Shown here: in pieces, positions 549 through 55,749 of the stretch
How the letters are laid out: each line of letters begins with the position of its first letter
Position numbering within the stretch: position 1 is the stretch's first letter
From: Candidozyma auris
Lineage: Eukaryota; Ascomycota; Pichiomycetes; Serinales; Metschnikowiaceae
Assembly (NCBI RefSeq): GCF_003013715.1
Contig: NC_072814.1
Span: forward strand, 434,001 to 498,000
Length of the DNA: 64,000 bases
Direction of reading: 5' to 3'
Made by a program: the position numbers and the translations under genes
Notes under the pieces: generated by a model
The model's database searches: none
What the model saw: the letters and a program-made list of their open reading frames with translations, nothing else
What the model was told of the DNA's origin: nothing

Positions 549-864
549 ACTCCCTTTGCCACATCATCTTTCATAATTTCTCCTAGAATTTTTGCATTAT
601 TATAACTATACATCGGTGGCCTGAATAATATACATTTGTAAGGTTTTCGCAACCAATTCTTTACGTCATATGTAAACACCCGAGCAAGCCACCTCTATGC
701 AACAGAAGCTGGCTTGAGCCATGCGGCACGTCCTGCAATTTCTGTGTATGCAGTGCGCTACCACTAAAGCAGAAGAAATCCTCTCGTTAATTATAGAACA
801 TATTTCTTCACCATTTCGATACTGTCCTTCGTTTGATAGTTAAATAATATACACTTAATTCGGC
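549..864. other. intergenic spacer SLN1-DAP2
   Basis: This 316-base spacer holds the 3' flank of SLN1 and the presumed promoter of DAP2. It is AT-rich near the DAP2 start. The only distinct element I see is one copy, on the minus strand, of the recurrent TGGYTGCRAAAA motif. No RNA gene was recognised. Confidence 0.6.
646..654 (-). promoter_or_regulatory. recurrent motif GGYTGCRAA, copy upstream of DAP2
   Basis: The minus strand reads AATTGGTTGCGAAAACC around this core. It lies about 210 bases before the DAP2 start codon. It is one of 14 intergenic matches in the window; the binding factor is unknown. Confidence 0.45.
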
Positions 865-3393
865 ATGTCGTTGGAGAAGAAGAAGAGAGACGAAGACGTC
901 TCGGAGAAGTCTCTTTACAAAGACATCAACTCAAGGCAGATGATGAGAGCCACGGCCACGGTGCTAGCCCTTGTGGCAATCATCATTTGGGGTGCTGGAT
1001 TCCTCATAAACGCTATGGACAACTTTTCAAGCCATCACAGCGCATTTTTGCCCACCAGAAGCAATGGAAGTGTCTATAAGTCTCCTCCCCTACTAACGAA
1101 TGAGCATTCCCATGAAAGTGGAAACGGCAAGCCTTCATTGACACTAGAGGATATCCGTGAGGGTAAATTCCGTGCCCAGTACAGACATTTGCAGTGGATT
1201 TCCGCTCCAGGGTCTTCCCTTCATGATCAAGGAACGTACCTTTTGGAAGATAAAACTGGTGACAATGTCACGTATGTCGTCAAAAGCATTTTAGATAGCG
1301 ACTACCACTATGTGCTTCACAACGGAAGCAGCTTCGCTTTTGGCGGAAAAGTGTACGAAATAGACTCTTTGACAGCATCTCCGGACCTTACAAAGGCCAT
1401 TTTAAAGACAAACACCAAAAAGAATTGGAGACACTCGTCATTTGCTCTTTACTGGGTCCTCGACGTGACTTCTCAAAGCATTGAGCCGTTGTTTAATACT
1501 GAAGCTTTGGTATCGGTGTCAAAATGGGCACCAACGTCGGATAAAATTGCTTTTGTCTATGAAAACAACGTGTACATCAAGTATCTTGAAACAGACTTTA
1601 TCAAACAAGTCACATTTGATGGTGACAATAACACCTTTTACGGGATTCCCGACTGGGTTTATGAAGAAGAGGTTTTCGCTTCAGATATTGTTTTGTGGTG
1701 GTCCCCTCAAGGTGATAAGGTAGGGTTTTTGAAATTTAACGATACACACGTTCCCGATTTCACAATCCCATATTATGTGCAAGAGGGATTCGAAGAGTAC
1801 CCTGAATTGGTTTCCATAAAGTACCCTAAACCAGGATACCCAAATCCTGAGGTTGATTTGGTTCTTTACAATGTTGACGAAACCGATGATAGTGCCCAAA
1901 TAATGAAGCTTCACACATCCTTTGACGATAAGCTAATCACTGAGGTCCTTTGGGTGTCTGATGAGTATTTATTGGTGAAGACAACGAACAGAGCTAGTGA
2001 CATAATGGAAATATTTATGGTATCCAGCAAGGAAGGGTCGGAAGGAAAGTTAGTAAGAAAGCATCACGCTAAAAGCTCCTGGTTCGAGGTCACTTCGAAC
2101 GCCATCTACATTCCTAGTGATAAGTCGGCTGGCAGGCCACATGACGGTTATATCGATCTTGTTGTGCACGATGGCTATAATCATTTGGCTTACTTCTCTC
2201 CACCTGATAACGCAGAAGGCAAACTTCTTACATCGGGACAGTGGGAGGTATTGAGTAACGTTTTCGATTTTCTGACGAATAAGATCTATTTCCAATCCAC
2301 TTACAAGTCGTCTGTGGAAAGACACTATTACTCATTGGACCTTACCGAGGCCATCAAGCTGCCAAGTATCATTGAGTTCAAGAACTTGACTGATGTCAGC
2401 TCTGATGGGTGGTATGAAGCATCCTTTTCGTCAGGTGCGAAGTTTGCACTTGTTTCAAACCTAGGACCTCATGTTCCATATCAGCATTTGATTGACCTAC
2501 ATTCGCATGAGGTTGTTGAGGAAGTTGAGCGTAACGATGAAGTTGAGAAAAATTTGAATAATTATCGACTTCCTTCCACAGATTTCTTTGTTGTTGACTT
2601 GGGTAAGGATGTTGATACAGGTGACAGTATTTTGGCAAACGCTATGGAAACCAAGCCCCATGATTTTGATCCTTCTAAAAAGTACCCAGCTCTCTTTTTC
2701 GTGTATGGAGGACCTGGATCTCAGACTGTAAAGAAGACATTTGACATTGGCTTCAGTCAGGCTATCTCATCTGAACTTGATGCCATAGTTGTGACTGTTG
2801 ATGGTAGAGGTACCGGGTACAATAACAATAACCAAGTACTCGGGTCCGATTTTAAATTTATTGTTCGTGACCGTCTTGGCCATTTCGAACCAATTGACCA
2901 AATTGCTGCTGCGTCTATTTGGGCTAAGAAATCTTACGTTGACAAGGAGAGGATCGCCATCTGGGGCTGGTCTTACGGAGGCTTTCTTACTCTAAAAACA
3001 TTGGAAACTGACTACTCAAACAGGGTCTTTTCTTATGGTGTTTCAGTGGCACCAGTCACCAAGTGGAAGCTTTATGACACAATCTACACCGAAAGATATT
3101 TGAGGAGCCCTCAAGAGAACCCTGATGGTTATCAAAGTGCCAGTATATTCAACATCACGAATTTCAAAGATGTGAAGAGGTTTTTAATCATGCATGGATC
3201 AGGCGACGACAATGTTCATTTCCAGAACAGTCTCAATCTTCTTGACGACTTCAATTTGGCTGGAGTTGAAAACTTTGACTTCATGGTATTTCCTGACTCC
3301 GATCATTCCATCAAATACCACAACGGCAATGTTGTTGTATTTGATAGAATTAAGAGCTGGCTAAAGAGAGCCTTCGCTGGAGAATTCTCATAA
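865..3393 (+). CDS. DAP2: dipeptidyl aminopeptidase, type II membrane protein (DAP2/STE13 family)
   Basis: A serine peptidase of the DPP-IV family (S9B) that removes X-Pro or X-Ala dipeptides from N-termini. The 842-residue protein has a short basic cytosolic tail, one signal-anchor helix at about residues 28-50, a beta-propeller region with the DWVYEEEVF motif that positions the substrate N-terminus, and a C-terminal alpha/beta hydrolase domain. The catalytic triad is visible: Ser703 in GWSYGG, Asp in GSGDDNVHF (781/782) and His814 in DSDHS. Length (842) and the short tail fit vacuolar Dap2 better than Golgi Ste13, which has a longer cytosolic tail and matures alpha-factor. CTG-clade yeasts may have one gene serving either role. 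There are several N-glycosylation sequons in the lumenal part. Start is the first ATG of the frame. Confidence 0.88.
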   Translation: MSLEKKKRDEDVSEKSLYKDINSRQMMRATATVLALVAIIIWGAGFLINAMDNFSSHHSAFLPTRSNGSVYKSPPLLTNEHSHESGNGKPSLTLEDIREGKFRAQYRHLQWISAPGSSLHDQGTYLLEDKTGDNVTYVVKSILDSDYHYVLHNGSSFAFGGKVYEIDSLTASPDLTKAILKTNTKKNWRHSSFALYWVLDVTSQSIEPLFNTEALVSVSKWAPTSDKIAFVYENNVYIKYLETDFIKQVTFDGDNNTFYGIPDWVYEEEVFASDIVLWWSPQGDKVGFLKFNDTHVPDFTIPYYVQEGFEEYPELVSIKYPKPGYPNPEVDLVLYNVDETDDSAQIMKLHTSFDDKLITEVLWVSDEYLLVKTTNRASDIMEIFMVSSKEGSEGKLVRKHHAKSSWFEVTSNAIYIPSDKSAGRPHDGYIDLVVHDGYNHLAYFSPPDNAEGKLLTSGQWEVLSNVFDFLTNKIYFQSTYKSSVERHYYSLDLTEAIKLPSIIEFKNLTDVSSDGWYEASFSSGAKFALVSNLGPHVPYQHLIDLHSHEVVEEVERNDEVEKNLNNYRLPSTDFFVVDLGKDVDTGDSILANAMETKPHDFDPSKKYPALFFVYGGPGSQTVKKTFDIGFSQAISSELDAIVVTVDGRGTGYNNNNQVLGSDFKFIVRDRLGHFEPIDQIAAASIWAKKSYVDKERIAIWGWSYGGFLTLKTLETDYSNRVFSYGVSVAPVTKWKLYDTIYTERYLRSPQENPDGYQSASIFNITNFKDVKRFLIMHGSGDDNVHFQNSLNLLDDFNLAGVENFDFMVFPDSDHSIKYHNGNVVVFDRIKSWLKRAFAGEFS

Positions 3394-3430
3394 TTTCTCG
3401 AGATATTGGCCAATTGCCCCTTGATGAAAT

Positions 3431-3439
3431 GGCTGCAAA
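3431..3439 (+). promoter_or_regulatory. recurrent motif GGYTGCRAA, copy upstream of TMA19
   Basis: Reads AATGGCTGCAAAAAATT, about 330 bases before the TMA19 start codon and only about 40 bases after the DAP2 stop. Confidence 0.45.
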
Positions 3440-3668
3440 AAATTAAGGCATCAGGCGTGCACATCTGTGCAGATGCCATCGCTGAGTGCGTATAAGGCGG
3501 CCATCCAAATTTACGAACGTCCCTTACGTGGTGAAGTTTCGATGTATTATATAATAGCATAGCTCCAGTGCATATTTTAAATGATCCATAGAAGACCTGT
3601 ATTCGTTGGAAAACCGTTTGCTTCAAATGATAGAATCCATTTTTCTTAGCCGGGTAACCCCTGCTACT

Positions 3669-3674
3669 CACGTG
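3669..3674. promoter_or_regulatory. CACGTG (Cbf1-type) box in TMA19 promoter
   Basis: A perfect E-box, CACGTG, 96 bases before the TMA19 ATG. In Candida albicans, Cbf1 is known to bind ribosomal-protein gene promoters, and TMA19 is co-expressed with translation genes in yeast. Use of this site here is inferred. Confidence 0.4.
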
Positions 3675-3705
3675 GACGCGAATATATCTGAAAATTTTCC
3701 AGGAC

Positions 3706-3712
3706 TATATAA
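3706..3712 (+). promoter_or_regulatory. TATA box of TMA19
   Basis: TATATAA lies 58 bases upstream of the TMA19 ATG, a plausible distance for a strong, highly transcribed yeast gene. Confidence 0.5.
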
Positions 3713-3769
3713 CTACCGCATTTCCAGGTCAGTGCATCACAGCCTTATTGCAATTCAAAAAGCCCAATC

Positions 3770-4276
3770 ATGAAGATTTACACTGACGTTATCTCCAACG
3801 ACGAGTTGTTGTCCGACGCTTACGACATCAAGGAAGTCGACGGTGTCGTTTACGAGGCCGACTGTGCCATGGTCCAGGTCAAGAACGGTGGTGACATTGA
3901 CATCGGTGCCAACCCATCTGCCGAGGACGCTGCTGACGATGTTGAGGATGGTGTTGAGACCGTCAACAACATTGTTCACTCCTTCAGATTGCAGCAGACT
4001 CAATTTGACAAGAAGTCCTTTTTGACCTACATCAAGGGTTACATGAAGCAGATCAAGGCTTACTTGTCTGAGCACAACCCAGATGAGGTTGAGACTTTCG
4101 AGAAGGGCGCCCAGGCCTACGTCAAGAAGGTTATCGGCTCCTTCAAGGACTGGGAGTTCTTCACTGGTGAGTCTATGGACCCAGATGCCATGATCGTGTT
4201 GTTGAACTACCGTGAAGACGGTACCACCCCTTTTGTTGCTGTGTGGAAGCACGGTGTTAAGGAGACTAAGATCTAA
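3770..4276 (+). CDS. TMA19: translationally controlled tumour protein homologue (TCTP)
   Basis: A conserved, abundant eukaryotic protein that associates with ribosomes; in yeast it moves to mitochondria under stress. At 168 residues it has the usual TCTP length and begins MKIYTDVISNDELLSD. The TCTP signature with GANPSAE is at about residues 46-55, and the helical hairpin with YIKGYMKQIKAYL and the C-terminal motif EFFTGESMDPDAM(I)VLLNYREDG follow. Codon use is strongly biased: all leucines are TTG and I see no in-frame CTG, which fits high expression. The gene is convergent with TRM13, with 73 bases between stop codons. Confidence 0.96.
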   Translation: MKIYTDVISNDELLSDAYDIKEVDGVVYEADCAMVQVKNGGDIDIGANPSAEDAADDVEDGVETVNNIVHSFRLQQTQFDKKSFLTYIKGYMKQIKAYLSEHNPDEVETFEKGAQAYVKKVIGSFKDWEFFTGESMDPDAMIVLLNYREDGTTPFVAVWKHGVKETKI

Positions 4277-4349
4277 GCTTGCCTGTTTCTTCAACTGTTT
4301 AATTAGCACAATATACTTTTTGGTGGATTTGAAAGTTTCTTAACCATTC

Positions 4350-9149: not shown

Positions 9150-9164
9150 ATGCGCTATGCGTAA
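9150..9164 (+). promoter_or_regulatory. four-codon upstream ORF overlapping the next start codon
   Basis: ATG at 9150 opens ATG CGC TAT GCG TAA. It contains the downstream ATG (9157) in another frame and ends 5 bases after that codon. A scanning ribosome meets this ATG first. Confidence 0.35.
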
Positions 9165-10770
9165 GAAAAACACCCATAAAGGTACTCTCACCATACCAAG
9201 ATGCAAACGAATAATTCGACCGTTGATCTCGAAAATTGCTTCGCTTACTGGGTTATACATTAAACATCCCTTCAAATTTGATCTCGGTATAGAAAGCTTC
9301 GACATTGTCCAGGAGAATCATGGACAGTCAGTGAAGTTTATAAACCCTTCGACTTCTGACGACCGTCTTCTTTATTTGAAGCCCTACTTGAACCCTGAAA
9401 TATACCAAACTTACGTTGAAATATTCACACTTTTCAAAAGCATTGTTCGAGCGTGGCTGGAAACTGGACCTCCAGCAAAAACTAGAGTACCGAAATTATC
9501 AACAATCTCATCTTTGAAGGTCGGAAAAATGATCACATTGGGAACAAAAAGCACTCACTATAGATTGAATCAGACGGCGTTATTCGATGCAGAAAGCATT
9601 CCGAGATACTTACAGAAGTACAAAGATGAACTTGCCGACGATATTGATGACTGGTTGTCAATGGAACCACAGTATGTCATGCAAACGCATATGATAGACT
9701 TGCTATACGGTTATGTCATTCACCTTCTTATATTCAATCTGAGAACAACTTTGTATTGTTTAATTCCCGTCCTTGTTCATTGGCTTCAGGAACAAGACGA
9801 TTCTCATCTAAAGTCTCTCCTGAGGACACTCCTTTATGAATTCTTCATTTTCCTGCCAATCGATGCAGACCAAAGAGCAGTGAAAGAGTTGACAAGTGAA
9901 GTTGCTCAGCACGATCCGTCTATACCAATTTTCTGGCTCTTTCATGGCATTGGCTATTGGAAACGGTTATGTTTCCTTTGTAAACTCGACTCGATTAATG
10001 TCAGTGCTAAACTCTACGAACCTTACGACAGTCTCTTCATTGATGTTCTCGCCAAAACAGACCGACTTTTTCTAACCGACGTTATCGATCTACCTCATAT
10101 ATACTCGACATTGCAAAGAAACCCGCAGCATCCACATAACACCTCGCTCATGATGTCCATATTAGCGCAAATAATCAGTTTATTCAAGAAAACCTTGGAC
10201 TCCTCAAGGACTTCTACTACGGCTCTCCGAACACTACAGGCGGGTATAAATGACTTCACCGAATTTGTGAGAACCTGGCTATCACTAAGCAGTGACTGTG
10301 TGTTCAACTCCTTGGATGGTGGCAACGAGGAAACATTTGAAGCTTTGATAAACGTGCTTAAGTTCATGAGAAGGCATTGTGATGGAGCAATTTCGTACAT
10401 TGAAGACAGTCTTCTGCGAAACCGGATAATCAAACTTGAGGATGTGCTTTCCAAGTTCAAGCAAGCAAACTCATCAATCAGTGACTTCTTCTTTAACATA
10501 CGCGTGCTACAAGCTTACTACCTTGATAATCCTGACCTATGTGACCTTGAAGGCGTCAAACTACCCAGCGCTAGCCATAGCTTGGCTTACCTTATGGCTC
10601 ATAACTGTGAGTTTGATGAAGTTGTCAACCTTCTTGCTTGGATTAGAGATCTCCCAAACGAAAAAGGTTTACGCATGTCCAAGTTGCTCTTCAGAGAGTT
10701 TTTCAAGGAGAATCTGGTGTTGGGTGAAATGGACGTAGAGCATGTTGCATGGGAATTATACGATCTATAA
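9157..10770 (+). CDS. uncharacterised helical protein, 537 aa
   Basis: I do not recognise this protein. It is predicted by eye to be almost wholly alpha-helical, with amphipathic and Leu-rich helices (for example YGYVIHLLIFNLRTTLYCLIPVLVHWL at about residues 187-213, which I read as buried helix, not a membrane span). It has no zinc or nucleotide-binding motif. The early segment LYIKHPFKFDLGIESFDIV and the repeated helices faintly recall the CENP-I/Ctf3/Mis6 kinetochore family, but the match is too weak to assign. The frame is open for 33 codons before the ATG without another ATG. A missed 5' exon is therefore possible, and no clear splice donor was seen. It is convergent with OAR1, 7 bases apart. 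Confidence 0.75.
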   Translation: MRKKNTHKGTLTIPRCKRIIRPLISKIASLTGLYIKHPFKFDLGIESFDIVQENHGQSVKFINPSTSDDRLLYLKPYLNPEIYQTYVEIFTLFKSIVRAWLETGPPAKTRVPKLSTISSLKVGKMITLGTKSTHYRLNQTALFDAESIPRYLQKYKDELADDIDDWLSMEPQYVMQTHMIDLLYGYVIHLLIFNLRTTLYCLIPVLVHWLQEQDDSHLKSLLRTLLYEFFIFLPIDADQRAVKELTSEVAQHDPSIPIFWLFHGIGYWKRLCFLCKLDSINVSAKLYEPYDSLFIDVLAKTDRLFLTDVIDLPHIYSTLQRNPQHPHNTSLMMSILAQIISLFKKTLDSSRTSTTALRTLQAGINDFTEFVRTWLSLSSDCVFNSLDGGNEETFEALINVLKFMRRHCDGAISYIEDSLLRNRIIKLEDVLSKFKQANSSISDFFFNIRVLQAYYLDNPDLCDLEGVKLPSASHSLAYLMAHNCEFDEVVNLLAWIRDLPNEKGLRMSKLLFREFFKENLVLGEMDVEHVAWELYDL

Positions 10771-12445: not shown

Positions 12446-12883
12446 TTAAACAAGAGCGGCAGCAATGGCAGCCAATCCAGCAGCAGCACCAACAGCGGCC
12501 TTGCCAGCATTGTTAGGAGCAGTCGATACTCCAGCAATGCTGCTTGGCTGGCTGGAGGAAGCTGGAGGCTTCGACTCAGGCGCTGTGGTGGTTGGAGCAG
12601 TCTCGCCTGGACCTGGTTTGGTTGGAGCTGGCCCGCCTGGACCTGGCTGGGTTGGAGTTGGAGCTGGCTGCACAATGGTGGTTGGGATGGTGCAGGGGCC
12701 AGTGACAGTCAAAGTGGTGGCTTCAGTGACGGTGATGGTCTTGTTGTTCACCACAACGTGGGTTGGCTCAGGACAGTAAGTGGTGTAGTCAGTAACCACA
12801 ATGTGGGTGGTGACGGTAGTGTTGGCGTGAGCAGAGGCGGCGCCAGTGAGAGCAGCAGCGGCAGCGACAGTTGAGAACTTCAT
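12446..12883 (-). CDS. small GPI-anchored cell-wall protein, CCW12-like
   Basis: A 145-residue mannoprotein precursor, probably one of the abundant structural wall proteins. It has a signal peptide (MKFSTVAAAAALTGAASA), N-glycosylation sequons (NTT, NKT), the motif DYTTYCPEPTHVV, which corresponds to the YTTWCP motif of S. cerevisiae Ccw12, and a Pro/Thr-rich repeat-like spacer (PGPGGPAPTKPGPGETAPTT). A GPI-attachment tail follows (NNAGKAAVGAAAGLAAIAAALV: a small-residue omega site followed by a hydrophobic end). The codon bias looks strong. A TTTATA on the plus strand at 12964-12969 (TATAAA for this gene) lies about 80 bases upstream. Confidence 0.82.
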   Translation of the reverse strand: MKFSTVAAAAALTGAASAHANTTVTTHIVVTDYTTYCPEPTHVVVNNKTITVTEATTLTVTGPCTIPTTIVQPAPTPTQPGPGGPAPTKPGPGETAPTTTAPESKPPASSSQPSSIAGVSTAPNNAGKAAVGAAAGLAAIAAALV

Positions 12884-13499
12884 TTAAGCGAGTGGACTAG
12901 TTTTGGATAGTGGTTGCAAAAAAAAAAAAGGAAGAAGGTTGGTGAAGAGGGAACTGGAACTAATTTATACTACGGAGCCACGCTTCGGATGGTGCAGCAA
13001 AAACATGCTTTGTTACTGAGCATTTTGCCTGTTTAAGAATGGGCTTGTCTACTTTAGCATCAGGGGAGCCACTTCCGTGAGAATGGCGTAGGCCACTCAG
13101 CAGAGATGTCAAACTGTGTATTACTTCCAGCCACAGTGAAGCCACACATGGAAAGACGCTATCTTGCATAAACGTGCCTGTTCGGGAATCGCCTTCCAAG
13201 TACGTGAAAACAAAGAATAGCTTGCTCGTGGTATCGCTATTTTTATCTTGATACCAGAAATGTTTTCTGTTAGAAGCGGCAAAATATTGTTTTGGTGTGG
13301 CGGCTGTTTTTCTCCTTAGATGTTCTTCTGCACTCGCACATGCAGCCCTTTCATTTAGGCTTCTATCATTTTAGAGTATTTGGTGGTGCCACATTATGAA
13401 AGTCAAAATAAGCTTATGACCATGTATCTCATGTATTTCATTCTTTACTTCTTCTATTTCTCTATTCCTCGTCTGTCACCCATCTCAGATGTTATTTGA
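12884..13499. other. spacer between CCW12-like gene and UBP3
   Basis: This 616-base region contains the promoter of the CCW12-like gene (minus strand) and the 3' flank of UBP3. It holds a GGTTGCAAAA motif copy only 29 bases before the CCW12-like ATG and a 12-base A run next to it. The short minus-strand frame at 12960-13199 looks like chance. Confidence 0.5.
12912..12920 (+). promoter_or_regulatory. recurrent motif GGYTGCRAA, copy in CCW12-like 5' leader
   Basis: Reads AGTGGTTGCAAAAAAAAAAA. It is closer to a start codon (29 bases) than the other copies, so it may lie in the transcribed leader. Confidence 0.4.
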
Positions 13500-16998: not shown

Positions 16999-17901
16999 TC
17001 AGTTGATACTCAAGGCCTCGAGTACCTGCCATGGCTCAGAAATTTGCTTTATCTGAATCGGTATACTTTCGTAATTGTATGCTGCTATTAAGACAGCCAA
17101 CAATTGGGTGCAAATTGGAAGCTTTTTGGGCACTTTTGGCCCACGCTTCAATAAGAAGTTGAAGAGTCGCCCGTTTACCTCATTCCTCTCGTACCCTTCT
17201 AGTAGCTGCTCGCTGGAAATATGCTCCTTGTCGTCGCCTGAGTCACAAATGAACTCTTCACTGGAGCAAAACCAATTGTATGGATCAACGCTAGTGTACC
17301 CACCTTCTGGCCATACTCGGCCTCTCTTCTCCGATGGATCATTGTCTATCCCCACCTTCTTAGTGTTAAGATTCAACGTAGCTCCAACTTTTCCAAGCAT
17401 ACGCCGTAGCTCGAGCCAATGGTTTCTTTCCTTCACAGCCACATGCTCGTCGATGATATTATTGTATACCCTGAGAAATATGGGATACATCTTTTCCGAT
17501 TGGTTTCCCGTCATGAACTGCCTCACAAGCTCTTCCAATTGATCCTGTCTCAACTCTTCAGCATTCAACACATCTGCTCTAATATTACCTCCAGTGGCCA
17601 TAGACAATGCTTGTGTGTACATATCCCCAAAAGCATAGGTCAAAAGAATGGTCTTATTGGGGTCGACAGAGTCGTGAAAGCTGTTTTTGAGCTTCCTCTC
17701 TTTATCTAGCTTTTCAATGTCTTCTTTGACTTGCCGTAGAGTAGCATCGTCTTCTTGTTGCAGTAAGTGATTTATATACTCGTAAATTTTGTCTACACAT
17801 CTCTGTCTTTTAAGGAGCCTTGATGCCAAAGCAGGGAATAATGTCAACAATCGGGCATTTTCGTCCTCTAGAAGACTCCCCTTGGCCTCCTCGGATGTCA
17901 T
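16999..17901 (-). CDS. Shu2/Sws1-like SWIM-domain protein with altered zinc ligands
   Basis: A 300-residue protein. Its C-terminal third resembles the SWIM domain of Shu2/Sws1, the Shu-complex subunits that help Rad51 filaments in homologous recombination. The stretch VDPYNWFCSSEEF (Cys212) parallels VDIAHWFCSCEEF of yeast Shu2 (from memory), and LPICTQLLAVLIAAYN (Cys264) parallels its CxHLLA segment. The SWIM zinc site CxC...CxH is altered here to C212-x-S214 ... C264-x-Q266, so two of the four ligands are missing. The N-terminal part (helical, KRQRCVDKIYEYINHLLQQ) is not recognised and the protein is longer than yeast Shu2 (about 220). The assignment is tentative; it is divergent from RTT106 with 84 bases between starts. 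Confidence 0.5.
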   Translation of the reverse strand: MTSEEAKGSLLEDENARLLTLFPALASRLLKRQRCVDKIYEYINHLLQQEDDATLRQVKEDIEKLDKERKLKNSFHDSVDPNKTILLTYAFGDMYTQALSMATGGNIRADVLNAEELRQDQLEELVRQFMTGNQSEKMYPIFLRVYNNIIDEHVAVKERNHWLELRRMLGKVGATLNLNTKKVGIDNDPSEKRGRVWPEGGYTSVDPYNWFCSSEEFICDSGDDKEHISSEQLLEGYERNEVNGRLFNFLLKRGPKVPKKLPICTQLLAVLIAAYNYESIPIQIKQISEPWQVLEALSIN

Positions 17902-19858: not shown

Positions 19859-20563
19859 AATTTAGCGATATGTAATGTTTAAAACTTTAGTATATCTTTA
19901 TGTTATAAAAACTTTTTGTGCGAAGGTTATTGGGCAGTTGACACCTGTACACCCACGGTTGTCTGGGGAAAGATAGATCTTCCATTCAGACCCAGGTTGG
20001 CTATTTTGAAGATCGAAAGATCAGTGACACTTGGGGTTGATTAAAGCCGACTCGATCACTTAAAAATCATATAAAGCAATTTCTATAGGTCGATTGCTAG
20101 CATAGTAGCCAGAGAGTAACTTTTTTACCGAATGTCTCCAAGAAGCTTGACGAGGTTTTATACTGTAATTTGTATTACCTTAGAATATTTGATGTAGGTT
20201 AATAGTTGCGCCGCTTTGATAAAAAGTTCATTTTCCCAGATTCATGTCTATGAGGTATTCGTAAGATGCCTATAAATTTAGACCAGTTCGCGAAATGGTT
20301 GCAAAACCAATGACAATTAGTACAACTAGTAAGGCTAGATTCTTTTGAAGAAGAAAAACATTTAAAAGTTGATTTCATAACGTCCCCAATCAAAGCCCAA
20401 CTCACAATATCATATAATTATTCATTTGATTTATGGTGCTAAATTTGGTATCTTAAGTATTCACCACTCAATTCCACTCCAACTGTGGATCTCCACTTGC
20501 AATATTTCGCATACAATTCCGCGGTACCGTTGATAAGCTCGACGAACAACATCCTTCTGCTCT
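19859..20563. other. divergent spacer before the aminotransferase gene
   Basis: A 705-base AT-rich region between two divergent genes. The only clear element is a motif copy at 20297-20305. No RNA gene seen. Confidence 0.5.
20297..20305 (+). promoter_or_regulatory. recurrent motif GGYTGCRAA, copy upstream of the aminotransferase gene
   Basis: Reads AATGGTTGCAAAACCAATG. Here the motif is also an imperfect inverted repeat (TGGTT-GCAA-AACCA). It lies about 260 bases before the start codon. Confidence 0.45.
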
Positions 20564-23346: not shown

Positions 23347-23478
23347 GGTGACAAGGAGGAGGTAAGGTTACTAACTGATAAGAGACTATATATACGACAA
23401 CTCCCACACATACATTCTGGCGCGTGATTGTATGCAAAGGCTAGGCGAGAAAGGCTCTCCATCTGTTTGCACCCACCG

Positions 23479-25282: not shown

Positions 25283-26817
25283 AACAATGAATCGGGTTGA
25301 TTATATGATAACGACGCCCTTCACAAAATAAGACATATGTGTCGCAGAGACAAGCCCGAAAACGACTTATGTTAGAATGTGTATCTATTGAGATCTTTAT
25401 AAGAGAAGCTCAGCATGATTTCTCGTGAAGTGCGACTAGAACCGCATAGTTTTCAAGTACCATCTCAGAGTCCCGTCGGGATTCCGTGCCGAGATATTAT
25501 GGCAAATGCAAGTAATACAAGAAGAAACGAGGAATGTCAGAGGCAGTGGCGGTGGTGGCTGTACACGGTTTTCCACGGGACTTCTCTTTTGGCTAATCTA
25601 ACTGTTGATTGTGACATGTGATATAGTTCTACTGTAACAATAAAGGAGAAATTTAGGCAGACGTAGCATTGGTAGCAGCATAGTCAAAGGAATATATCAA
25701 GAGTACGATACCTCTACTTTATTAGCGTTCGTCACTTGCCACTTGTGGCAATTCAACAACATACACGAAGGAACGAGAAACTCCAACAACACTCACCAAA
25801 TACACAAAGTGGCATTCTGAACCTTTCTACCAGTATTCATCCTCGCAACACACACCAATGGACACATTTGATCATTTTCCACAGAACCACTCTCCTTCTA
25901 TTTCCCTCTCACGCTGCCTCCTATCGGACTTCATACCCAAAGTGGTACTCAGCGAATGACCGACCCGGAGTTCCATTGCGTTATCAACACAAACACCACA
26001 AGTTCAGAAGAAATTCAGAAGCTTACTCATATCAGATCAACCCTCTTCTATGTTTTCAAAATGCCTACTGAGCGGCCCTTGAATTGGTTGCAAAAACAAG
26101 ACTTGGCCGCTCCTGGCGCTCGCCTATTATGGCAGGTGGCTTGCGGTGAGGGAACCTATTTAGGGCGCACTTTCTGAAACACCCATTTCGCGCTGGGGAA
26201 ACCAGGCCTCAGCACGAGCCCAAGACAATGTGACAATAGTGAATGTTAAAGGATAACGTTGTGAAACAAAGAACCGTTCCAGGTCAGCTTGCAAAGATCG
26301 ATGTTCTCTGTCAGTTTAAACGTCTCCTCTTGAGAAGCTCCCCTTGCCATTTGGCTTTTTGCAATTTCCTGAGGAGGCTCCCCTCTTTTGCACCCAACTT
26401 ATTTGCAAAATACGGAAAACCACGAGATCACCCAGGAAAAAGGGGGCTCTGGATGACTTTCTTCAGTGTTGCGGTGATCCCTCTCGTAGGCTTGGGAATG
26501 GACATTGTTTAAAATATGAATTCATCATTTTTCATTACTTTAGCTCCTTCGTATCATTCCCCTGCGTGGTGCTACTTGTTTTGCCTGACTCGGGAATGGC
26601 CTGTCTCTTTGCTGTGTCACTTTTTGGTGTATTTTTTTTTCTTGTTCAGGCCTCCTTTTATTACCTCACTTTCTCGCTCGCTGTACCCTACCACTATTCA
26701 ACAACACTCAGCTTCCAAAGTATCCTAACAGCTGCCGCTTTAAATCCTGAAAACCCTCCCATATTCCTTCTTTCATACCATCCCTCTCATCATACTTTTT
26801 CTCCCGCTGCTCCGGCC
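25283..26817. other. long spacer and leader region of DMA1
   Basis: A 1.5-kb region before DMA1. It has a motif copy at 26086-26094 and a pyrimidine-rich stretch from about 26530 to 26815. The frame of DMA1 is open back to 26344, but only from a TTG and with no protein-like sequence. A 70-codon uORF starts at 26516. No RNA gene recognised. Confidence 0.5.
26086..26094 (+). promoter_or_regulatory. recurrent motif GGYTGCRAA, copy upstream of DMA1
   Basis: Reads AATTGGTTGCAAAAACAAG, about 730 bases before the DMA1 ATG. Confidence 0.45.
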
Positions 26818-34821: not shown

Positions 34822-34830
34822 GGCTGCAAA
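34822..34830 (+). promoter_or_regulatory. recurrent motif GGYTGCRAA, extended copy
   Basis: Part of TTGGCTGCAAATTGG, which recurs with one change (GCG for GCA) at 44468-44482. A partial copy, CTGGCTGCAAGG, lies about 105 bases upstream. Confidence 0.45.
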
Positions 34831-35544
34831 TTGGGTAAAAGTCTCATTCGAGAAGGAAGCTCCCTCGGCAAAGCCAGGGTGCGAAATAATCCGAGGATCA
34901 TGAGAGACCATGACATTTTCACCTTAACAATGGGATCGCTGACTGATTGTAATTATCCGTTCTGGACTGGCAAAAGCAGTGGCGAAACGCTAACCGTCGC
35001 CTCAGCTAGTTTTAGCATTCTAAGCGTTGCAGATTCTCAACTCCTGTGTCGTCTGCCCACGCTCTCTTTTCCTCGCTTATTACGAATACGCTGCGTGAAA
35101 GATTCCCCAGTGTGCTCGTCTGCGCCATCCATTGCCAGAGCCCCGAGCTGCGGAGCCTCAGCCTTGTGCTGCCAAGCCTGCAAACATTCACCCCGTCAAC
35201 TTGATGGAGGTAAGTAAACTTGGGGTTAAATGGCAGTTAAAATGCCAGGAAAAAAACTTTACCTCCAAAAGTGGGGCCTCTGACCTCGTCAACTTGATTA
35301 TCTTTGGCATCGCTGTCTTGGTTCTTCCAGAACCCCACTAACGGGGCCTCACAACCAATACGCATCCACCGCAGTGCGCACTGCACTCTCACGGGCTTCC
35401 TTCCCTGCGGCATTTCAGTCTGGACCCTCACACAGGATCTCCATAACGGTTCTACTTCACGCCATCACTCATTTATATCCAACCCATCTTCTTGCTGCTT
35501 CACGAATTCTCCGCCATTTCTTGTGTACTTACAAGCTCTGCACA

Positions 35545-39170: not shown

Positions 39171-42100
39171 TTAAGCAAGCATATCCGGGTCGAGGGTGTT
39201 CGATCTGGAAAAAGATGCATATCTCTGGAATGGATCTTTTCTTTCCAACTCGTATTCTGGATTTTTAACCTTGGGGCTCCACTTTCTTTTGTAGATTCTC
39301 TTACCCCACTTCCATGCTTCAGCAGCAAGCAAGAAAAAGAGCGTGCAAGCAATGGCCAATCCCCATTCCCAACCTATTGGGTCGTGAAGGAAAACTTTGT
39401 CATTGATAACTGGAATGTAGACAACAGGGAACACAGTAACAAAACCACCGATGACTGACCAGAACAAAAACTGGTTGTCCCAAAGATCAATAGCAGTTTG
39501 CTTCCACCATGGATTGTCAGTGTCCTGTCTCATGTAAAACAAGGAATTGGTTGGGTGAATACATTCCCAGGCAAGAACGAGGGCACACCACGTCATGGTA
39601 GCGAACGAAGCGGATCTTCCCCTGAAGACCAAGTTACAGCTAACGCCATCACTGTTGTTACAGTTGTGACCCAAGTTTCCGTCACCTTTACCAAAAACAA
39701 CAACAACAAAAGAAAGCATGCAGCTGATAGCCATGAAGAGACCGAGAGCGCACATGTCAATGATGATTTCAGGGGTAAAAATGTGGCGGTTTGGAGGCTG
39801 CTCCAAGACGTCGTCAGCAGCCTTTTCTTGACCCAAACCCATGGCTGGGAAACAGGACGTAACAACCAAAATCCACAAGACCTCAACAGGAGACAATGGG
39901 AACACAGAGAGTCCATCATCATCCTGGAATGCCAAACCAACCATTAAGTAGATAGCCTGTGCAACGTTTTCAGCAAGAAGTTGTAAAATGAACTTCTGAA
40001 TGTTAGCAGCCATTCTACGACCTTCTTCAATAGCATGCAAGATGGAAGCGAAGTTGTCGTCAGTCAAAACAATATCGGACGCATCCTTAGCAACATCAGA
40101 ACCGTTCTGGCCCATAGCAATACCAACATCTGCCTTTTTCAAGGATGGAGAATCATTGACACCGTCACCAGTCATAGCGCAGAATTTTTCACGGCGGTGC
40201 AAAGCATCAATCATTCTGACCTTCGTCTGCGGAGCACAACGAGCGATAACCAAAGGCAAAACGGGCAATGCATCAATCTGCTCATCAGTCAACTCGTCAA
40301 ACTCGCTGGCAGTCATACACATAGCCTTTACTACTTCATCGGAGTAGTGGTACAAGTTGTGTGGCAATATACCAACCTCCTGAGCAATAGCCTTCGCAGT
40401 ACTTGGATGGTCACCGGTAACCATATGGACGTTAATACCAGCTTTATGACACTTCTTAACGGAGGGAGCCGTCTCCAATCTTGGTGGATCGTAAATACCG
40501 ACTAAGCCATGGAAGATCAAATTGTCCTCGATGGAGTCTCTGTCTTCAAGTTTATCCTTGTTGTGGTCGAAGTCTCTACTAGCGAATGCCAACACACGCA
40601 AACCTTGCGAGGACAAAGCATCCATGTTAGCTTCGATCTCGGCAATGTCGTCCTCGGTCAAATCAACGAGCTTGTCAGTGTCAGTTTTCTCTTCAGGGTT
40701 TCCTGTCCATTTGGTACATTTGCGAATAATTCTTTCCACAGCACCTTTGGTGAAAATCTTGGTCTCGTTTCCCATTTCCCAAATGGAGGACATTCTCTTG
40801 ATGGAGGAGTCAAAGGGATATTCCTCGATGTGCTTGAAACTCTTGGAATATTCATCTCTTCCGAAACCAACTCTGCAGCAAAAGACCTGAATGGCAATTT
40901 CAGTAGCATCACCGTGGGCCTTCCACACCAACTCACCTGAGTTTTCGTCCTTGGTTTGGTGGACGGAGGCAATGTTCGCTAAGGTAGCAACGTTCAACCA
41001 TTTCTTGAAGTTCTCAGGGAATACATCAGGATTGGATCTATCCATGGGCAAGAAGTCAATCTCCTCATCAGTTTCCTTAATATACTTTGGAGAGTATTGA
41101 GTGAAGCCCAAGTCTCCTTCTGTAGGGTTGAAGGCTTCATTTGAGTTTTCCATGCTGAAGGTACCAACCGATGGCACCCAAACTCTTTTGGTTACCATTC
41201 TACCTTGAGTCAACGTACCAGTCTTATCAGAGCAAATGTCGTTGATACCGCCCAAGGCTTCCAAAGAGTCGAGCTTTCTGACAATCACATTTCTGGAAAC
41301 CATGACTTGGGCACCAACGGCCATTGTGATGGTCAAGACGACGATCAAAGCAGATGGAATCATGGACAATGCAACACAGATGGCGTAGATGGCGACTTCT
41401 CTATTGACGTTCATTTCTTGAGTGGCCATAACGACAATGGCGAAAACAACGGCAACCCAAAACAAGAAAATAGCCAACCAGGACAATTTTCTTTGCAAAG
41501 GTGTGCCAACTGTGACACCCAAAAAGTTACCGATAATGTCCTTGATTGTACCAAAAAATGCGTTGGAGTATTCCTTTGGACCAGGCAGCTTGTCACCAGA
41601 CTTATCAACCTTTCTGATGACGCCGCTGTCACCTTTCAAGGATTGGGCAATCTGACCAATTTCAGTTTGCAACCCTGTAGCGATGGCAATACCAGTACCT
41701 CTTCCTTTAGCAACGACAGAAGAAGAAAATGCCATGTTCAATCTGTCACCCACAGGCACATACTCCTTTGGGTTTGAGTACACCTCGTTGTGGTTTTTGA
41801 CGACGGGCAAAGACTCACCTGTCAAGAGGGCCTCGTCAGTTTCCAAGTTCATGGTGTCGATCAATCTCAAGTCGGCAGGAACAGTGTCACCAACCTTAAT
41901 GTGGACTATGTCACCCGGGACAACGTCTTCTGCGGGAATGTCCCCTTCATCTCCGTTCCGAGTGACTCTAGCCGACGGAGAAGACAAGGACCTTAATGAG
42001 CCCATAGTTTTCTCCGCTTTGACTTCTTGCACAAAGCCAATGGAAATGTTAATGAATACGACAGCGCCAATCACACCACCAGAAATCCAGTCGCGGATGG

Positions 42101-42629: not shown

Positions 42630-43809
42630 AATCATCTAACTCAATGGCCCAGGCTATTGTGGAGGTGCACTGCAGACACAAGAAAAGAAAAAGACAACGT
42701 GGGTAGATCTGTGCAGGCAATCTGAGATATCGATCGAAAGGTACAAATAAGAAGCTCCCATGGCATCCAATTGCTATGTGGGCAGCTATTGTAAGGCAGA
42801 TGGTGGAACAGGCCTCACGCACGTAGAACAAGGGTCAGCTGTAAGGCCGTGAGGCGGACAGGTGTGTGCAGGAGGGGCTACAGATAAGCACCACAGATTT
42901 GCGCGGCGATGAAGAAGAACATGAGCATGGATGAGGGCCCCGCATGCAGGATATCACCCAGGGCGTTTTTCCGGTCTCACTCTCCACAATCCATCTCGGT
43001 ACTGCAGCCAGGGTAATCTCCATTGACCTTTTACCACTTATCTTCAGCACCGGGCTTGGCACCAGGCCCAATCTAAAAAGTAAGAGTCAAACGCCATATC
43101 CTGCCGAGGGGCTGGCGCGGGGACCGAGGGGCGAAGCCGCTTTACAGTCTCGGAAGGTGCCCGAAACGTTAAGTGTTCACAAGTTTGTGTGTCACCTGCC
43201 AGTGGTCACGCGACGCTCGGCTTCAGCCGCCTACGCGCCGGCCCGGCCGCCTCGTTTGCCTCGGAAGTGTCGGTGGGCTCACGTCTGATTAGGCATGTAT
43301 CCACGTGCGCGATTACGCTTGTTGGAAGAGCACCTCGTTTCGCCTGAGCTTGCCGGTCCTTAATCAATGGGGAATTGAGATTGTGGCCACCGGCTGCGTG
43401 CGTGTGCAGGATTCTACGGGACGACCGACTGGTACTCGACAAGGATCTCAAATGAGGCAACAGGCAACAATAAAAAAGGCTCCTTCGTTCGACTGTGTCA
43501 AGTTCAAGTTTCTGTGCTGCTTGGTTCCTTGCTGGCCATGTCACGTGGCCACCACCAACCGTTCGACAATCGCTTTAGCCGAGGTGCCGCGCCCAGCAAC
43601 CTTTGCACTTATTCTAAGACCACCTCTTGTCTAGCCATCGAGGCGAGAGTGCGCATTTTGGGTGCAAAAGTTGCCCAAGCACGCCGGGTACTTCTTGAAC
43701 TGCCATTAACGACACTGAGCAATTCGCTGTCCCCCTAGTGCTTATCGTAGACTGTATATCACAATTACACTACGTTGCTATATCTACTATCATTGTTGTC
43801 TATCAAATT

Positions 43810-44098: not shown

Positions 44099-44478
44099 GG
44101 TTGCAAAACGGGTAAAACGTGTTGATTGCTGGAAATATGACACGTGTGCTGCAAACGTAAGAAAGGCTGCCTCGATCGAAAGTGACAGTTTGCTAGTTCC
44201 CAATGGCGGGTTTTTCGATTCATGAAGCCCTGCTCCGTACTAACGCTTACATCACCCATTTTCGCAACCAATTGGGCGAGCGGCGACCTCCAAGAACTTG
44301 GCTAGTAGCGCCCAAGAAACAACGCAAGCCTATCTGTTCTTTAAAATGCCAGCAGCAGCTCCACGTATATAAATGCCAATGAGAGCTTTCAAATTTGTGA
44401 TGCAGTGATCTTAGGAGTTGATATGGAGGAACGCTGTTGTTGTGCCAACCCAATGATTCTTGGGTGCTTGGCTGCGAA
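44099..44478. promoter_or_regulatory. three copies of the recurrent motif before MDM20
   Basis: Copies at 44099-44107 (plus, CACGGTTGCAAAACGG), 44261-44269 (minus, AATTGGTTGCGAAAATGG) and 44470-44478 (plus, TTGGCTGCGAATTGG). They lie 375-750 bases before the MDM20 ATG. Confidence 0.5.
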
Positions 44479-49295: not shown

Positions 49296-51047
49296 TTACG
49301 ATATGCTGATTGTGCGTCTTTCTCTGCCACTTCTGGCTAGAAGAAGGTCCGCGTGGGCCAAATCATCGTCCTTGCCGTTGGCCCACTCGCTGATATCCTG
49401 AACCACTCGTTCCAGAATCAACCTGTCCATGTGCTTCTCTTGTTCTTTCATGCGAACGAAGAGCTCCTCGCACGTCTCCACAAGCACATTAAGTCTTCTG
49501 GCTGCCTGACGTCTTTTGTAAGCGATAATGGGCTCGAAGTTTGTGATTCTGGTGTTGAAACGGATCTCGAGCACCGTGAGACGCTTCAACAAGTTATGGT
49601 GCAAGATGACGGGAATTGACTGGTCACTAATGTAAGGACAGTTGTTTAATGAGAGTCGTTCAAGGCGCTTGCCACACGATATAGTGAGCTGCCAAAGCGA
49701 CCGATCTGTGATGTAGCACCCGGCAACACCAACAGTAGTCAAATTAGGATTGTTCAAGGCAACAGCACACACGCTGTGGTCTGTGATGAGATGGCCTCTT
49801 CTTTTGCGTCCCAAGTTGAGGGCTTTTAATTTCTTGCACTTTTGACCTACCATGTAGACTCCATGGTCAGTAACATTTTCGCAAGCCCGTATGTCAAGTA
49901 TTTCTAGATTAGGACAAGTAGATGCTACTGCTGCCAATTTCGTATCTTCAAGTGCCTTAGAACCAGTGACAATCAATGTCTTCAAGGTAGGCAGCAAGAA
50001 GCTACGGGTAGGAGCGATCTTAGGGCACATGTACAATTCGAGCCACTCGAGCCTGCTCAAATCTATGTTTGCGGCAATGGAGTTGAAATGAGGTTGACGA
50101 AGAAACAACATTTTGCTGAGCACCAATGTCTTGGGGCTCATTCCGTCGTAGAATTGCTGAGACGACTTTGGCGCAATAAATTTGGCGAGGGTACGCTCTT
50201 CAGTGAAGAAGAGCCTTTCCCCTAGAATTTCCTTAGTGATGTGGTGGAAAAGCTTGTTGACAAGCAAGCATGTGTGAAGCACATTCAGCCTATTGGAAGG
50301 TTGTGGCTCTTGGAGTGTTGAGAAAGCGCCTTCCATGGCCAATTTTGCTGCCTCTTCGTTGCCGTGCACTAGCAAGGCGTGCTGAAAAGAAAGCGGTTTA
50401 CGACACACGGGGGTCTTTTCCCTTGGAATGATTGTATTTTGAGCATCGGCGTAAACGATAATTTTGTGGACTAGCTCAGGAATCTCGAATATCGATGGCT
50501 GCGAAATTGGCTCTAGTTGCGAAATCTGTATATCCACATCCATATCTTCAACACAGGTAGCGTTCCGAAGAGGAGTCAGGGCTGGAGCCAGTGAAAGTCT
50601 CTTCAATGGCAGCTCGAATGTGTCGAAGTAAGAAACGCTTGGGCGGAAAGGCGTAAGCGGGCTCCTTGTCGATGCAGTGGAGGTGGAGGAGTCGTCTAGC
50701 TCAGGTAGGGAGTCAGTGTCTGAATCCGAAACACCTGCGCTGAACTGGAACTCCAGGTCGCTGAGTTCAGAGACAGGGGTGGTAGTATCAGGCGTTGGCG
50801 AGGCCAAACGGAGCAAGCGGCTCGCTCTCCTTCTGGGAGGTGAATATCCCAGCGAAACCAGTCTGAACATGGGAGTCGCTAGAGGAGAAGGCAATACCCT
50901 CGACAGCTTTGCCCTTTTTAGGTTTCGAGCAGGCAGTGCCGGCAACGGTCTGTAACTCGAGAAGGTGCTGCACTGATTGTTTCTTGTAGGGGTCGATACA
51001 TTGCAGTTTGGAGGGCTCTGAGGGGAGGTGGGAGCAGCATGGGCCAT
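49296..51047 (-). CDS. AMN1: Amn1, F-box/LRR-type antagonist of mitotic exit
   Basis: Amn1 is a daughter-cell regulator that inhibits the mitotic exit network and, as an SCF-type adaptor, promotes Ace2 degradation and cell-clumping phenotypes in yeasts. The 583-residue protein (549 in S. cerevisiae) has a disordered Ser/Pro-rich N-terminus and a weak F-box-like helix region (FEIPELVHKIIVYAD ... LHTCLLVNKLFHHIT). Seven or so leucine-rich repeats of the AMN1/cysteine-containing type follow (CPNLEILDIRACENVTDHGV, CKKLKALNLGRKRRGHLITD, NPNLTTVGVAGCYITDRSL, KRLERLSLNNCPYISDQSI). The C-terminal tail is helical and basic. Confidence 0.88.
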   Translation of the reverse strand: MAHAAPTSPQSPPNCNVSTPTRNNQCSTFSSYRPLPALPARNLKRAKLSRVLPSPLATPMFRLVSLGYSPPRRRASRLLRLASPTPDTTTPVSELSDLEFQFSAGVSDSDTDSLPELDDSSTSTASTRSPLTPFRPSVSYFDTFELPLKRLSLAPALTPLRNATCVEDMDVDIQISQLEPISQPSIFEIPELVHKIIVYADAQNTIIPREKTPVCRKPLSFQHALLVHGNEEAAKLAMEGAFSTLQEPQPSNRLNVLHTCLLVNKLFHHITKEILGERLFFTEERTLAKFIAPKSSQQFYDGMSPKTLVLSKMLFLRQPHFNSIAANIDLSRLEWLELYMCPKIAPTRSFLLPTLKTLIVTGSKALEDTKLAAVASTCPNLEILDIRACENVTDHGVYMVGQKCKKLKALNLGRKRRGHLITDHSVCAVALNNPNLTTVGVAGCYITDRSLWQLTISCGKRLERLSLNNCPYISDQSIPVILHHNLLKRLTVLEIRFNTRITNFEPIIAYKRRQAARRLNVLVETCEELFVRMKEQEKHMDRLILERVVQDISEWANGKDDDLAHADLLLARSGRERRTISIS

Positions 51048-53338
51048 AATTCAAAGGAGTGTAGAAGTTGGAGGGGGCCCGCTCACAAAACAAGATGATT
51101 AATGCCAAAAAAAAAATTCAAAGAAGTGAAGTGAAGTAATGATGGTGGAGGGATTAAAAGGAATGTGCCCTAGAGGGGACAGCTAGTGTGGGTGACAGAG
51201 TCCTGGGGAAGGAGGATGATTGGACCCAGTTGCAAATGGCGAACACAAGAAAAAGAAGCAGGGGAAATCTTCCGAAGGAAACCAACAAACTTTATATATC
51301 AGGGGAGGATTTCAGGCACCCGAGCAGCAATGGAGCACAATCGCTGGCGACAAGCATGAGGATCTGTGGGAAGGGTGGTACCTTGGTCGAAAGCGGGAGG
51401 AACAGTTACCGGTTGCAGTGCGAGAGCCAGCCGCCTTAAGCGAAAGAAGGCCCGCGAGCTGGAACAAGCTGCCTGTCACAGAGCAGTCTGGGCGGCAGGA
51501 ACAAAATGAGAATGAAAATAAAATATTATAAAAAAAATTGTAAAATTAAAATCCATCTTTGGTCCATTGCTGGTTGAGACCGGTGTTCGACAGTGGACTC
51601 TTCTACATGGCACTAAGTGCACTGCGCAAGGTACACCCAACACTTCCACACGAACATTTACCCTTGCATGGACAGAGAAGACTATTTTTTCTTGATTGCT
51701 TCTGGGCCCTTGCAAGTCATGTCAGAGAAGTAATAGAGAGTCTGGGCAAGTTTTAGTTCAGAATGGTATAATGACATCACTAGTCATGGCTGCGAAAAAA
51801 ACGAAGCAGGCGGCTGTCCCTGTGTGGTGCGCAGTGAGAGAGAGGGTCGAGGGCTGGCTTTTGCAACCACTTAAGCAGTGCGCCGTCCATTCGTGGGAGA
51901 GCCGCGGCAGGATGCTTGTTTACCTCAAATAAAGAACAAAAAGTTACATAATTTTTATGTCTTGGCCGTCTGCAAAGACGTGTCATCTGGGGATGTTGGT
52001 GTTATCGTCTAGGTCTAAGCCACGAAGGTTACTTTGACGAGAGTCGACACTTGAAGGATGGCTGGCGGTTGCGAAAAAAATAAAAAAAGTGGTGAGGCAG
52101 CATAAAAAAAATAACGGTTCTCGACTGCGATATTTTTTTTAAGAGATGTCAGGTGGGTTCCGTTTGTGTCAGATTCGAGCGGGCCCAGCACATCTCGGCT
52201 CGGCTAATCTGAAACAATCAAGGACATTGGGAATTAGAGATATTCTCTTTTTATTTTTGTTTTATCCTCGAGGTGGCATATTTACACGAAAAGTAAAGAG
52301 TTTAATGGGGGATGAAGGCAAGTCAAATCCTCTCACGTAAGCATCACGCCAACTACAAGAACTCAGCTGTAAACCAAACGACCATCAAAACTTCCCAAAT
52401 TTCCACTGCTTCAAGAGCGGCTTTCAAATTGAATCAAGTGAACTCCTGGATGCGCAAGCTGCCAGTGCGAGCCAGCTGTTAAACTTAGGTTGCACTGCAG
52501 GGGCAGAGCAGTAGTAGCGTCCTAATCTAATCAAAAGAGGAAAATAAATGGTCACTTGATGAATATAGACGCGTCAAGAATTAAAAGAAAAAAAAAATTA
52601 CATTTGTCAAATTTTCTCACTCTCGTTTTGTCTTTGTCTACACTCACCCCTCTGGAGTGCACCCTGTCTATTATAGACAGCTGCCCGGCGTGCACCTCAC
52701 ACACATTTTGCAACCATTGTGTTGAGGAATTGCTTTGACCTCTTAGAGTTGCCATACCCTATAGATCCCACACGACACCTTTACAAATGGTTATCACGAT
52801 CAATATGTTATCGGACGAATCATCGCCAGGGGCCTTGAACAGCCACGTGACGAGAGTCATGATGTGATTCACTGTGCTGTGCTGCTGTCTTCTGTACCTG
52901 CCTGCGCCGGATCAATACCACCGAGATCTGGTAAGCTTGGAAAGGGCGTACAAATTCAGCCTTTACTATGCCAACAATCACCAAATATCTTGTTAGTCTT
53001 AGGCATTTGCTACTTTTGTCTCATTGAATTTTTTTTTTGTCTTCTTTTTCCTCAAGAAGAGATTTCGTTGACATGGTCCCTTGACCAGTTGCTTTTCAGA
53101 TTGCGCTCTGCTCTGTCTACTTTCACCGCGACAAAAGAAATAATGCGTTCTATCTCTAATGTAAGTGAAAAAAAAATGGCAGGGCTTGAATGCACGATCA
53201 CTGCCTTCTCGGATTAATTAAACCATCAACCAAAGCATTTTTCATTTTCCTTCTTTTTTATCACCCTCTCTTTCACCCTAGTGAATTTCATCTCTCATAA
53301 CATATTGACTATCACTCAGCTGAAGCCTTGCAAGGACG
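51048..53338. other. 2.3-kb divergent spacer AMN1 / ROD1
   Basis: A long gene-free region between divergent AMN1 and ROD1. It contains four copies of the recurrent GGYTGCRAA motif within about 930 bases, an ACGCGT (52569-52574), a CACGTG (52844-52849) and several short A or T runs. Frames up to about 117 codons have no protein-like character. Confidence 0.6.
51788..52715. promoter_or_regulatory. four copies of the recurrent motif between AMN1 and ROD1
   Basis: Copies at 51788-51796 (plus, CATGGCTGCGAAAAAAA), 51860-51868 (minus, AGTGGTTGCAAAAGCC), 52067-52075 (plus, GGCGGTTGCGAAAAAAA) and 52707-52715 (minus, AATGGTTGCAAAATGT). This is the densest cluster in the window. Confidence 0.5.
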
Positions 53339-55606: not shown

Positions 55607-55740
55607 CACACCTCACAGTCACAGAGCATAGACCTCACTGATAGACGAAAATAGATATAAAGATACTTCAATCAAATCACTCATGAAACAAAGTCAGGTA
55701 CCTTATATGTATAGCTCCACATTCATTTCCTTAATCATAT

Positions 55741-55749
55741 TTTGCAGCC
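55741..55749 (-). promoter_or_regulatory. recurrent motif GGYTGCRAA, copy upstream of TLG2
   Basis: The minus strand reads CACTGGCTGCAAAATAT, about 90 bases before the TLG2 ATG. Confidence 0.45.

Follow-up and report, generated by a model that had tools for sequence, protein, structure and literature searches.

A short word abundant between the genes of Candidozyma auris probably binds a general gene-control protein

A stretch of 64,000 nucleotides of the Candidozyma auris genome (NCBI RefSeq assembly GCF_003013715.1, contig NC_072814.1, positions 434,001 to 498,000, here C3:434001-498000; GC content 0.448), referred to below as the window, was analysed for a recurrent nine-letter word, GGYTGCRAA, which a first-pass annotation had noticed between its genes. 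The word, found mostly upstream of genes, probably serves a general gene-control protein as its landing site. In a widened form, TGG[C/T/G]TGC[A/G]AAAA, it would be bound by an abundant, sequence-specific DNA-binding protein acting at a large share of promoters. Such a protein would be of the general regulatory factor (GRF) type, occupying promoter DNA and letting gene-specific factors act, and would probably keep promoter DNA open together with A tracts. Taken as a whole, this reading is moderately likely. We infer both the binding of a protein and its general role from the abundance of the word, its preference for DNA between open reading frames (ORFs), its sharp base specificity, the coupling of two of its positions and the unrelated functions of the neighbouring genes.

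Abundance and shape of the word

Counts over the whole genome (12,249,773 bases, 7 contigs) were made on both strands, using the same pattern read backwards as control. GGYTGCRAA was found 3,482 times (1777 + 1705), compared with 298 (149 + 149) for the reversed pattern, and TGGYTGCRAAA 1,878 times, compared with 21 (sum over four variants). For single words, the counts were 811 (423 + 388) versus 5 (3 + 2) for TGGYTGCRAAAA, 1,008 versus 35 for TGGNTGCNAAAA, 926 versus 5 for TGGCTGCGAAA, 528 versus 1 for TGGCTGCAAAA, 330 versus 5 for TGGTTGCAAAA and 94 versus 10 for TGGTTGCGAAA. Positions 3 and 7 of the nine-letter word are coupled, C going with G and T with A (odds ratio 6.2, chi-square p 4e-51, four 11-mer variants), which suggests either that one protein reads both positions together or that two related proteins prefer different versions.

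Base specificity was examined in a 264-kb sample consisting of the window and C1:1000001-1200000, in which ORFs were called at a length of at least 150 amino acids, giving 77,273 bp between ORFs and 186,727 bp in ORFs; all counts between and in ORFs given below refer to this sample. Position 3 accepts C, T or G, not A, and position 7 accepts A or G, both sharply. With A at position 3 the excess is gone (GGATGCRAA, 2 between ORFs and 6 in ORFs), as it is with a pyrimidine at position 7 (GGYTGCYAA, 4 and 8, respectively). The consensus is better given in the wider form TGG[C>T>G]TGC[A/G]AAAA. Information is confined to positions 0 to +10; as the flanks are flat, the copies are not pieces of a longer repeat. 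A matrix of the motif obtained by seeded expectation maximisation drifted to a looser word, and no claims rest on it.

Placement relative to genes

Between ORFs, GGBTGCRAA was found 64 times versus a shuffle mean of 4.7 (maximum 11 in 100 shuffles), and in ORFs 20 times versus a mean of 9.4 (maximum 18), a small excess being present there too; the density is about 7.5 times higher between ORFs than in ORFs. Relative to shuffles, the word is overrepresented about 15-fold between ORFs and 2.3-fold in them. In a ranking of between-ORF words relative to shuffles, with simple words dropped, TGGCTGC, TGGCTGCG and TGGCTGCGA came first among 7-, 8- and 9-mers, GGTTGCAAA and TGGGTGCAA also ranked high, and CACGTGA, the Cbf1 word, was next among the unrelated 7-mers. 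Upstream of genes, 61 sites of the motif were counted versus 1 to 3 for each of three control words. These 61 sites, for which both neighbouring genes are known, lie in tandem (36) and divergent (25) regions, and convergent regions hold none in 2,585 bp, a small amount of sequence in which about 2 would be expected. Of the 81 regions of the divergent or tandem kind, 34 contain one or more sites and 47 contain none; the numbers of regions with 0, 1, 2, 3 and 4 sites were 47, 19, 7, 4 and 4, compared with 44, 21, 9, 4 and 1 under a Poisson distribution.

Some features of the placement speak against a general factor. Chief among them is the missing density peak at a fixed distance, which argues against a classical GRF sitting just upstream of the transcription start: from 50 to 1,500 bp upstream of the ATG the density varied between 0 and 1.6 per kb without a peak, as measured from the ATG rather than from transcription start positions and with few sites per bin (0 to 11, at most 62 in all). 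Up to 500 bp from a stop codon the density is 0.4-0.6 per kb versus 0.8-1.05 farther away, a weak contrast. The sites are oriented opposite to the gene strand in 42 of 61 cases (p 0.0044 versus one half), but under a composition control (25 of 36 tandem-region sites) p rises to 0.13, because shuffled words of the same letters also lean to the opposite strand (56%); with 8 proteasome-gene sites added (7 of 8 opposite), the lean is 32 of 44 and p 0.023. A tracts were found 3' of the site in 9 of 64 cases and 5' in 2 of 64 (p 0.054), T tracts in 5 and 5. Both the strand preference and the A-tract asymmetry are only suggestive.

The first-pass annotation had favoured a general regulatory or chromatin factor. 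The density contrast between and in ORFs, the share of upstream regions with a site and the unrelated genes beside them support this in part, whereas the lack of an ATG peak speaks against a classical GRF. Equal density in coding or in shuffled sequence, one of the outcomes named there as refuting its proposal, was not what the counts gave.

Copies in the window

The window was divided by its gene list into 18,005 bp of intergenic and 45,995 bp of coding DNA, CTG being provisionally translated as serine on the basis of the placement in Candidozyma and of a few codons compared with known sequences. The copies are as follows, with coordinates counted from the first letter of the window.

646-654, minus strand: (T)GGTTGCGAA, between the end of a response-regulator ORF and the DPP-IV type peptidase gene
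3431-3439, plus strand: TGGCTGCAAA, flanked by the DPP-IV type and TCTP genes
12912-12920, plus strand: TGGTTGCAAA, upstream of ORF 12446-12883 (minus strand) and continued by an A tract
20297-20305, plus strand: TGGTTGCAAA, upstream of the aminotransferase gene
26086-26094, plus strand: TGGTTGCAAA, upstream of the FHA-RING gene
34822-34830, plus strand: TGGCTGCAAA, in the region separating two divergent genes of fungal transcription-factor type
44099-44107, plus strand: CGGTTGCAAA, upstream of the NatB subunit gene, overlapping a dubious ORF of 128 amino acids
44261-44269, minus strand: TGGTTGCGAA, upstream of the NatB subunit gene, same region as the 44099 copy
44470-44478, plus strand: TGGCTGCGAA, upstream of the NatB subunit gene, same region as the 44099 copy
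51788-51796, plus strand: TGGCTGCGAA, divergent region between the LRR gene and the arrestin-domain gene
51860-51868, minus strand: TGGTTGCAAA, LRR/arrestin-domain divergent region
52067-52075, plus strand: CGGTTGCGAA, LRR/arrestin-domain divergent region
52707-52715, minus strand: TGGTTGCAAA, LRR/arrestin-domain divergent region
55741-55749, minus strand: TGGCTGCAAA, upstream of the SNARE gene
23466-23474, minus strand: position-3 G variant TGGGTGCAAA, between two genes
26387-26395, minus strand: position-3 G variant TGGGTGCAAA, upstream of the FHA-RING gene
34877-34885, plus strand: position-3 G variant GGGTGCGAA, 55 bp from the 34822 copy
43660-43668, plus strand: position-3 G variant TGGGTGCAAA, upstream of the NatB subunit gene
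41666-41674, minus strand: GGYTGCRAA match inside a P-type cation ATPase ORF, probably chance
50497-50505, plus strand: GGYTGCRAA match inside the LRR-protein ORF, probably chance

The 14 intergenic sites reported in the first-pass annotation were all recovered as exact matches to GGYTGCRAA at the positions and on the strands given there, 12 of 14 being preceded by T and 12 of 14 followed by A. Its count of 14 between genes is correct, since the only two further matches in the window (of 16) lie in long ORFs, and its chance expectation of 0.5 copies was of the right order, the mean in shuffled intergenic sequence being 0.81 (maximum 6 in 1,000 shuffles). Dinucleotide shuffles of the whole window gave a mean of 3.05 matches, and none of 100 reached 16; coding DNA holds 2. 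The variant with G at position 3 has 6 copies in the window, 4 of them intergenic.

According to Pfam, the genes next to the copies are unrelated, as had been claimed: they encode a DPP-IV type peptidase, TCTP, an aminotransferase, an FHA-RING protein, factors of the zinc-cluster and fungal-trans types, a NatB subunit, an arrestin-domain protein and a SNARE. The window also holds two long ORFs, 9157-10770 and 16999-17901, with no Pfam match at E 1e-5.

Comparison with general regulatory factors of other yeasts

With the sites of Reb1, Abf1, Rap1 and Cbf1 the motif shares thousands of copies, unrelated genes downstream and far lower frequency in coding DNA; it differs from them in that its sequence matches none of theirs, so that the earlier statement that it is neither a Rap1 nor a Cbf1 site holds, and in that it has no peak at a fixed distance from the ATG. 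The words of Reb1/Nsi1 and Rap1 used in this comparison are published ones (PMC7565893 and PMC10985990, respectively). Three of the known words are not clearly enriched, namely those of Reb1 (4 between ORFs, 4 in ORFs), Rap1 (3 and 2) and Abf1 (8 and 28). The Cbf1 word CACGTGA is enriched (23 and 2), and the Tbf1 word TTAGGGC may be (11 and 4). Two further words with an excess between ORFs, CTACCCC (14 and 8) and CTACCCCAG, cannot readily be assigned to a factor.

GRF words are reported to have been replaced between yeast lineages, those of Abf1 and Reb1 having little explanatory power in D. hansenii, C. albicans and Y. lipolytica (PMC2897762). Within the clade, Nsi1 of C. albicans and C. auris, the Reb1 ortholog, is likewise a proposed GRF, with the word TTACCCGG determined in C. 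albicans by chromatin endogenous cleavage sequencing (PMC7565893); unlike the motif, TTACCCG is not clearly enriched here (4 between ORFs, 4 in ORFs). The words reported for peaks of accessible chromatin (ATAC-seq) that change under stress in C. albicans are Cap1 and A-tract words, not this motif (PMC7559329).

The general-factor reading, the best supported one, concerns a known kind of element, and neither this particular word nor its likely reader turned up in the literature searched. Searches for the motif strings as whole words found no paper, and a substring search that required two strings together found seven papers, none of them a yeast paper by title, a search that would miss papers containing a single string.

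Relation to the proteasome element

The word GGTTGCAAA is one base away from GGTGGCAAA, the proteasome-associated control element (PACE) read by Rpn4, and the motif might on this account be a PACE that has drifted in the lineage. Proteasome genes make this very improbable. Among 14 genes of the proteasome family (L041-L054), GTGGCGA occurs within 500 bp upstream of 6 versus 0.4 expected, and GGTGGCGA in 3 versus 0.05 expected, whereas canonical GGTGGCAAA was found in 1 of the 14 upstream regions and is not enriched in the sample (1 between ORFs, 1 in ORFs). The motif itself lies within 800 bp upstream of 8 of the 14 genes, where its intergenic density predicts about 9 sites. As proteasome genes favour GTGGCGA and carry the motif at base rate, it is distinct from this yeast's proteasome element, in agreement with the first-pass annotation, which had set it apart from the Rpn4 site. 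It is possible that a paralogous C2H2 factor reads the motif. The element GTGGCGA/GGTGGCGA of the proteasome genes is itself PACE-like, the seventh base of GGTGGCAAA being changed from A to G.

Other explanations

A broad but not general regulator, one that activates or represses a large regulon, as factors of the Candida network do, and that owes its many sites to the size of that regulon, would account for sites spread along long upstream regions, up to 4 in each, and for the 47 of 81 regions that have none. We regard it as rather unlikely. The numbers of sites per region are near Poisson, with a small excess only of regions with 4, so there is no clear targeted subset of regions, and the proteasome genes (8 of 14 with the motif) carry no more copies than intergenic density predicts. 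Two consensus words of that kind, CACAAA for Ndt80 and TGCAT for Efg1 (PMC8075579), differ from the motif.

The lack of an ATG peak and the merely weak depletion on the stop-codon side would also suit a site for replication origins or chromosome structure, with no role at promoters. For a genome of this size a few hundred origins are expected, and the roughly 1,900 strict or 3,500 relaxed copies in 12 Mb lie far above that number, which makes such a site improbable. The excess of one orientation (42 of 61 sites, and 7 of 8 at proteasome genes, opposite to the gene) could point to an RNA element in 5' untranslated regions, an idea which is hardly credible given that both orientations are present, that some sites lie more than 1 kb upstream and that words of shuffled letters lean likewise (56%). 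Remnants of a dispersed repeat, or an artefact of composition, would explain the many copies and can practically be discounted: the flanks are flat, reversed words and words changed at inner positions are rare, and dinucleotide shuffles fail to reproduce the counts.

A candidate reader

If the motif is a general-factor site, its reader may be a zinc finger of the WRKY-GCM1 (Aft) type, most likely the ortholog of Rbf1, an assignment which rests on sequence comparison and is tentative, rather below an even chance; the Aft-like protein described below would come next. It was suggested by the Aft-like frame of the motif, by the kinship of Rbf1 with WRKY-GCM1 proteins and by the listing of C. albicans Rbf1 as a binder of RPG-box DNA (PMC3904162), the Rap1 word, CAYCCRTACAY (PMC10985990), carrying GGRTG on its opposite strand.

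Read on the other strand the motif is TTTYGCA[G/A/C]CCA, with the core YGCAVCC. The words of Aft1 and Aft2 are ANTGCACCC and BRCACCCB (PMC4161868), and a CACCC core is mentioned for C. albicans Aft2 (PMC3633901); no motif information was obtained from PMC7826875. The frame Y-G-C-A-N-C-C is common to the motif and the Aft words, YGCA[G/A/C]CC being in identical register with YRCACCC, and one variant of the motif contains TGCACCC exactly. It differs from the Aft sites in being relaxed at position 5 of YRCACCC, where C is not the commonest base, in its preference for a TGG...AAAA context and in its thousands of sites. The density of TGCACCC between ORFs is 2.7 times that in ORFs.

The AFT family of Pfam has hits at three loci of the genome, that of Rbf1 below the cut-off. 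The first (L029) encodes an Aft2-type protein, which in a PDB sequence search matches AFT2 (4lmg) and whose nearest named relative is in C. duobushaemuli (81%). The protein encoded by the second (L031) is Aft-like, has a FAR1 domain and is related to proteins of CTG-clade yeasts and Komagataella. That of the third (L032) is rich in glutamine, and its relatives bear the name RBF1, the nearest of them in Candidozyma haemuli (88%). Profile comparison, by which alone Rbf1 is assigned to the WRKY-GCM1 fold, joins all three (E 2.2e-14 for Rbf1 and L031, 2.6e-6 for Rbf1 and Aft2, 3.8e-10 for L031 and Aft2). Database names for this fold class include FAR1 and MuDR-transposase-like, the class being kin to transposases. 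Copies of the motif lie about 950 bp upstream of the presumed start of the Rbf1 gene and about 390 bp upstream of that of the L031 gene, there inside its open frame, and none was found in the Aft2-type locus; the two copies are attributable to the base rate.

Other results weigh against this assignment. Rbf1 scores 19.3 bits, with the AFT family cut-off at 21.6, and has no match to solved structures in the PDB sequence search at E 1. BRCACCCB is not enriched between ORFs (ratio 1.2). Since GGATG, which the Rap1 word permits, is at background level here, the fit of the motif to the RPG box is only partial. A telomere link for Rbf1 was rejected, the motif having 0 matches in the repeat AACCCAGACACCACCTAAGA(A), as read in 8 contig-end pieces of 400 bp. 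It is also possible that a C2H2 or other factor reads the motif instead of Rbf1.

Of the 8 contig-end pieces, 7 (L033-L035, L037-L040) carry a telomere-like repeat of 20-21 bp with slight variation, TCTTAGGTGGTGTCTGGGTT; the exception, at the start of contig C3 (L036), runs into sequence that looks coding.

Implications

Should the general-factor reading be correct, the word would be among the commonest regulatory words of C. auris, and reading the promoters of this yeast would require it. It would also be a new example of one GRF taking the place of another between yeast lineages, one for which a candidate protein can be named. A more far-reaching scenario, which we consider doubtful, is that Rbf1, as a WRKY-GCM1 zinc finger, became the main GRF of the Candidozyma lineage, that TGGYTGCRAAAA replaces the words of Reb1, Abf1 and Rap1, and that either a single coupled contact or a pair of paralogs would read its two linked sub-sites (CTGCG and TTGCA).

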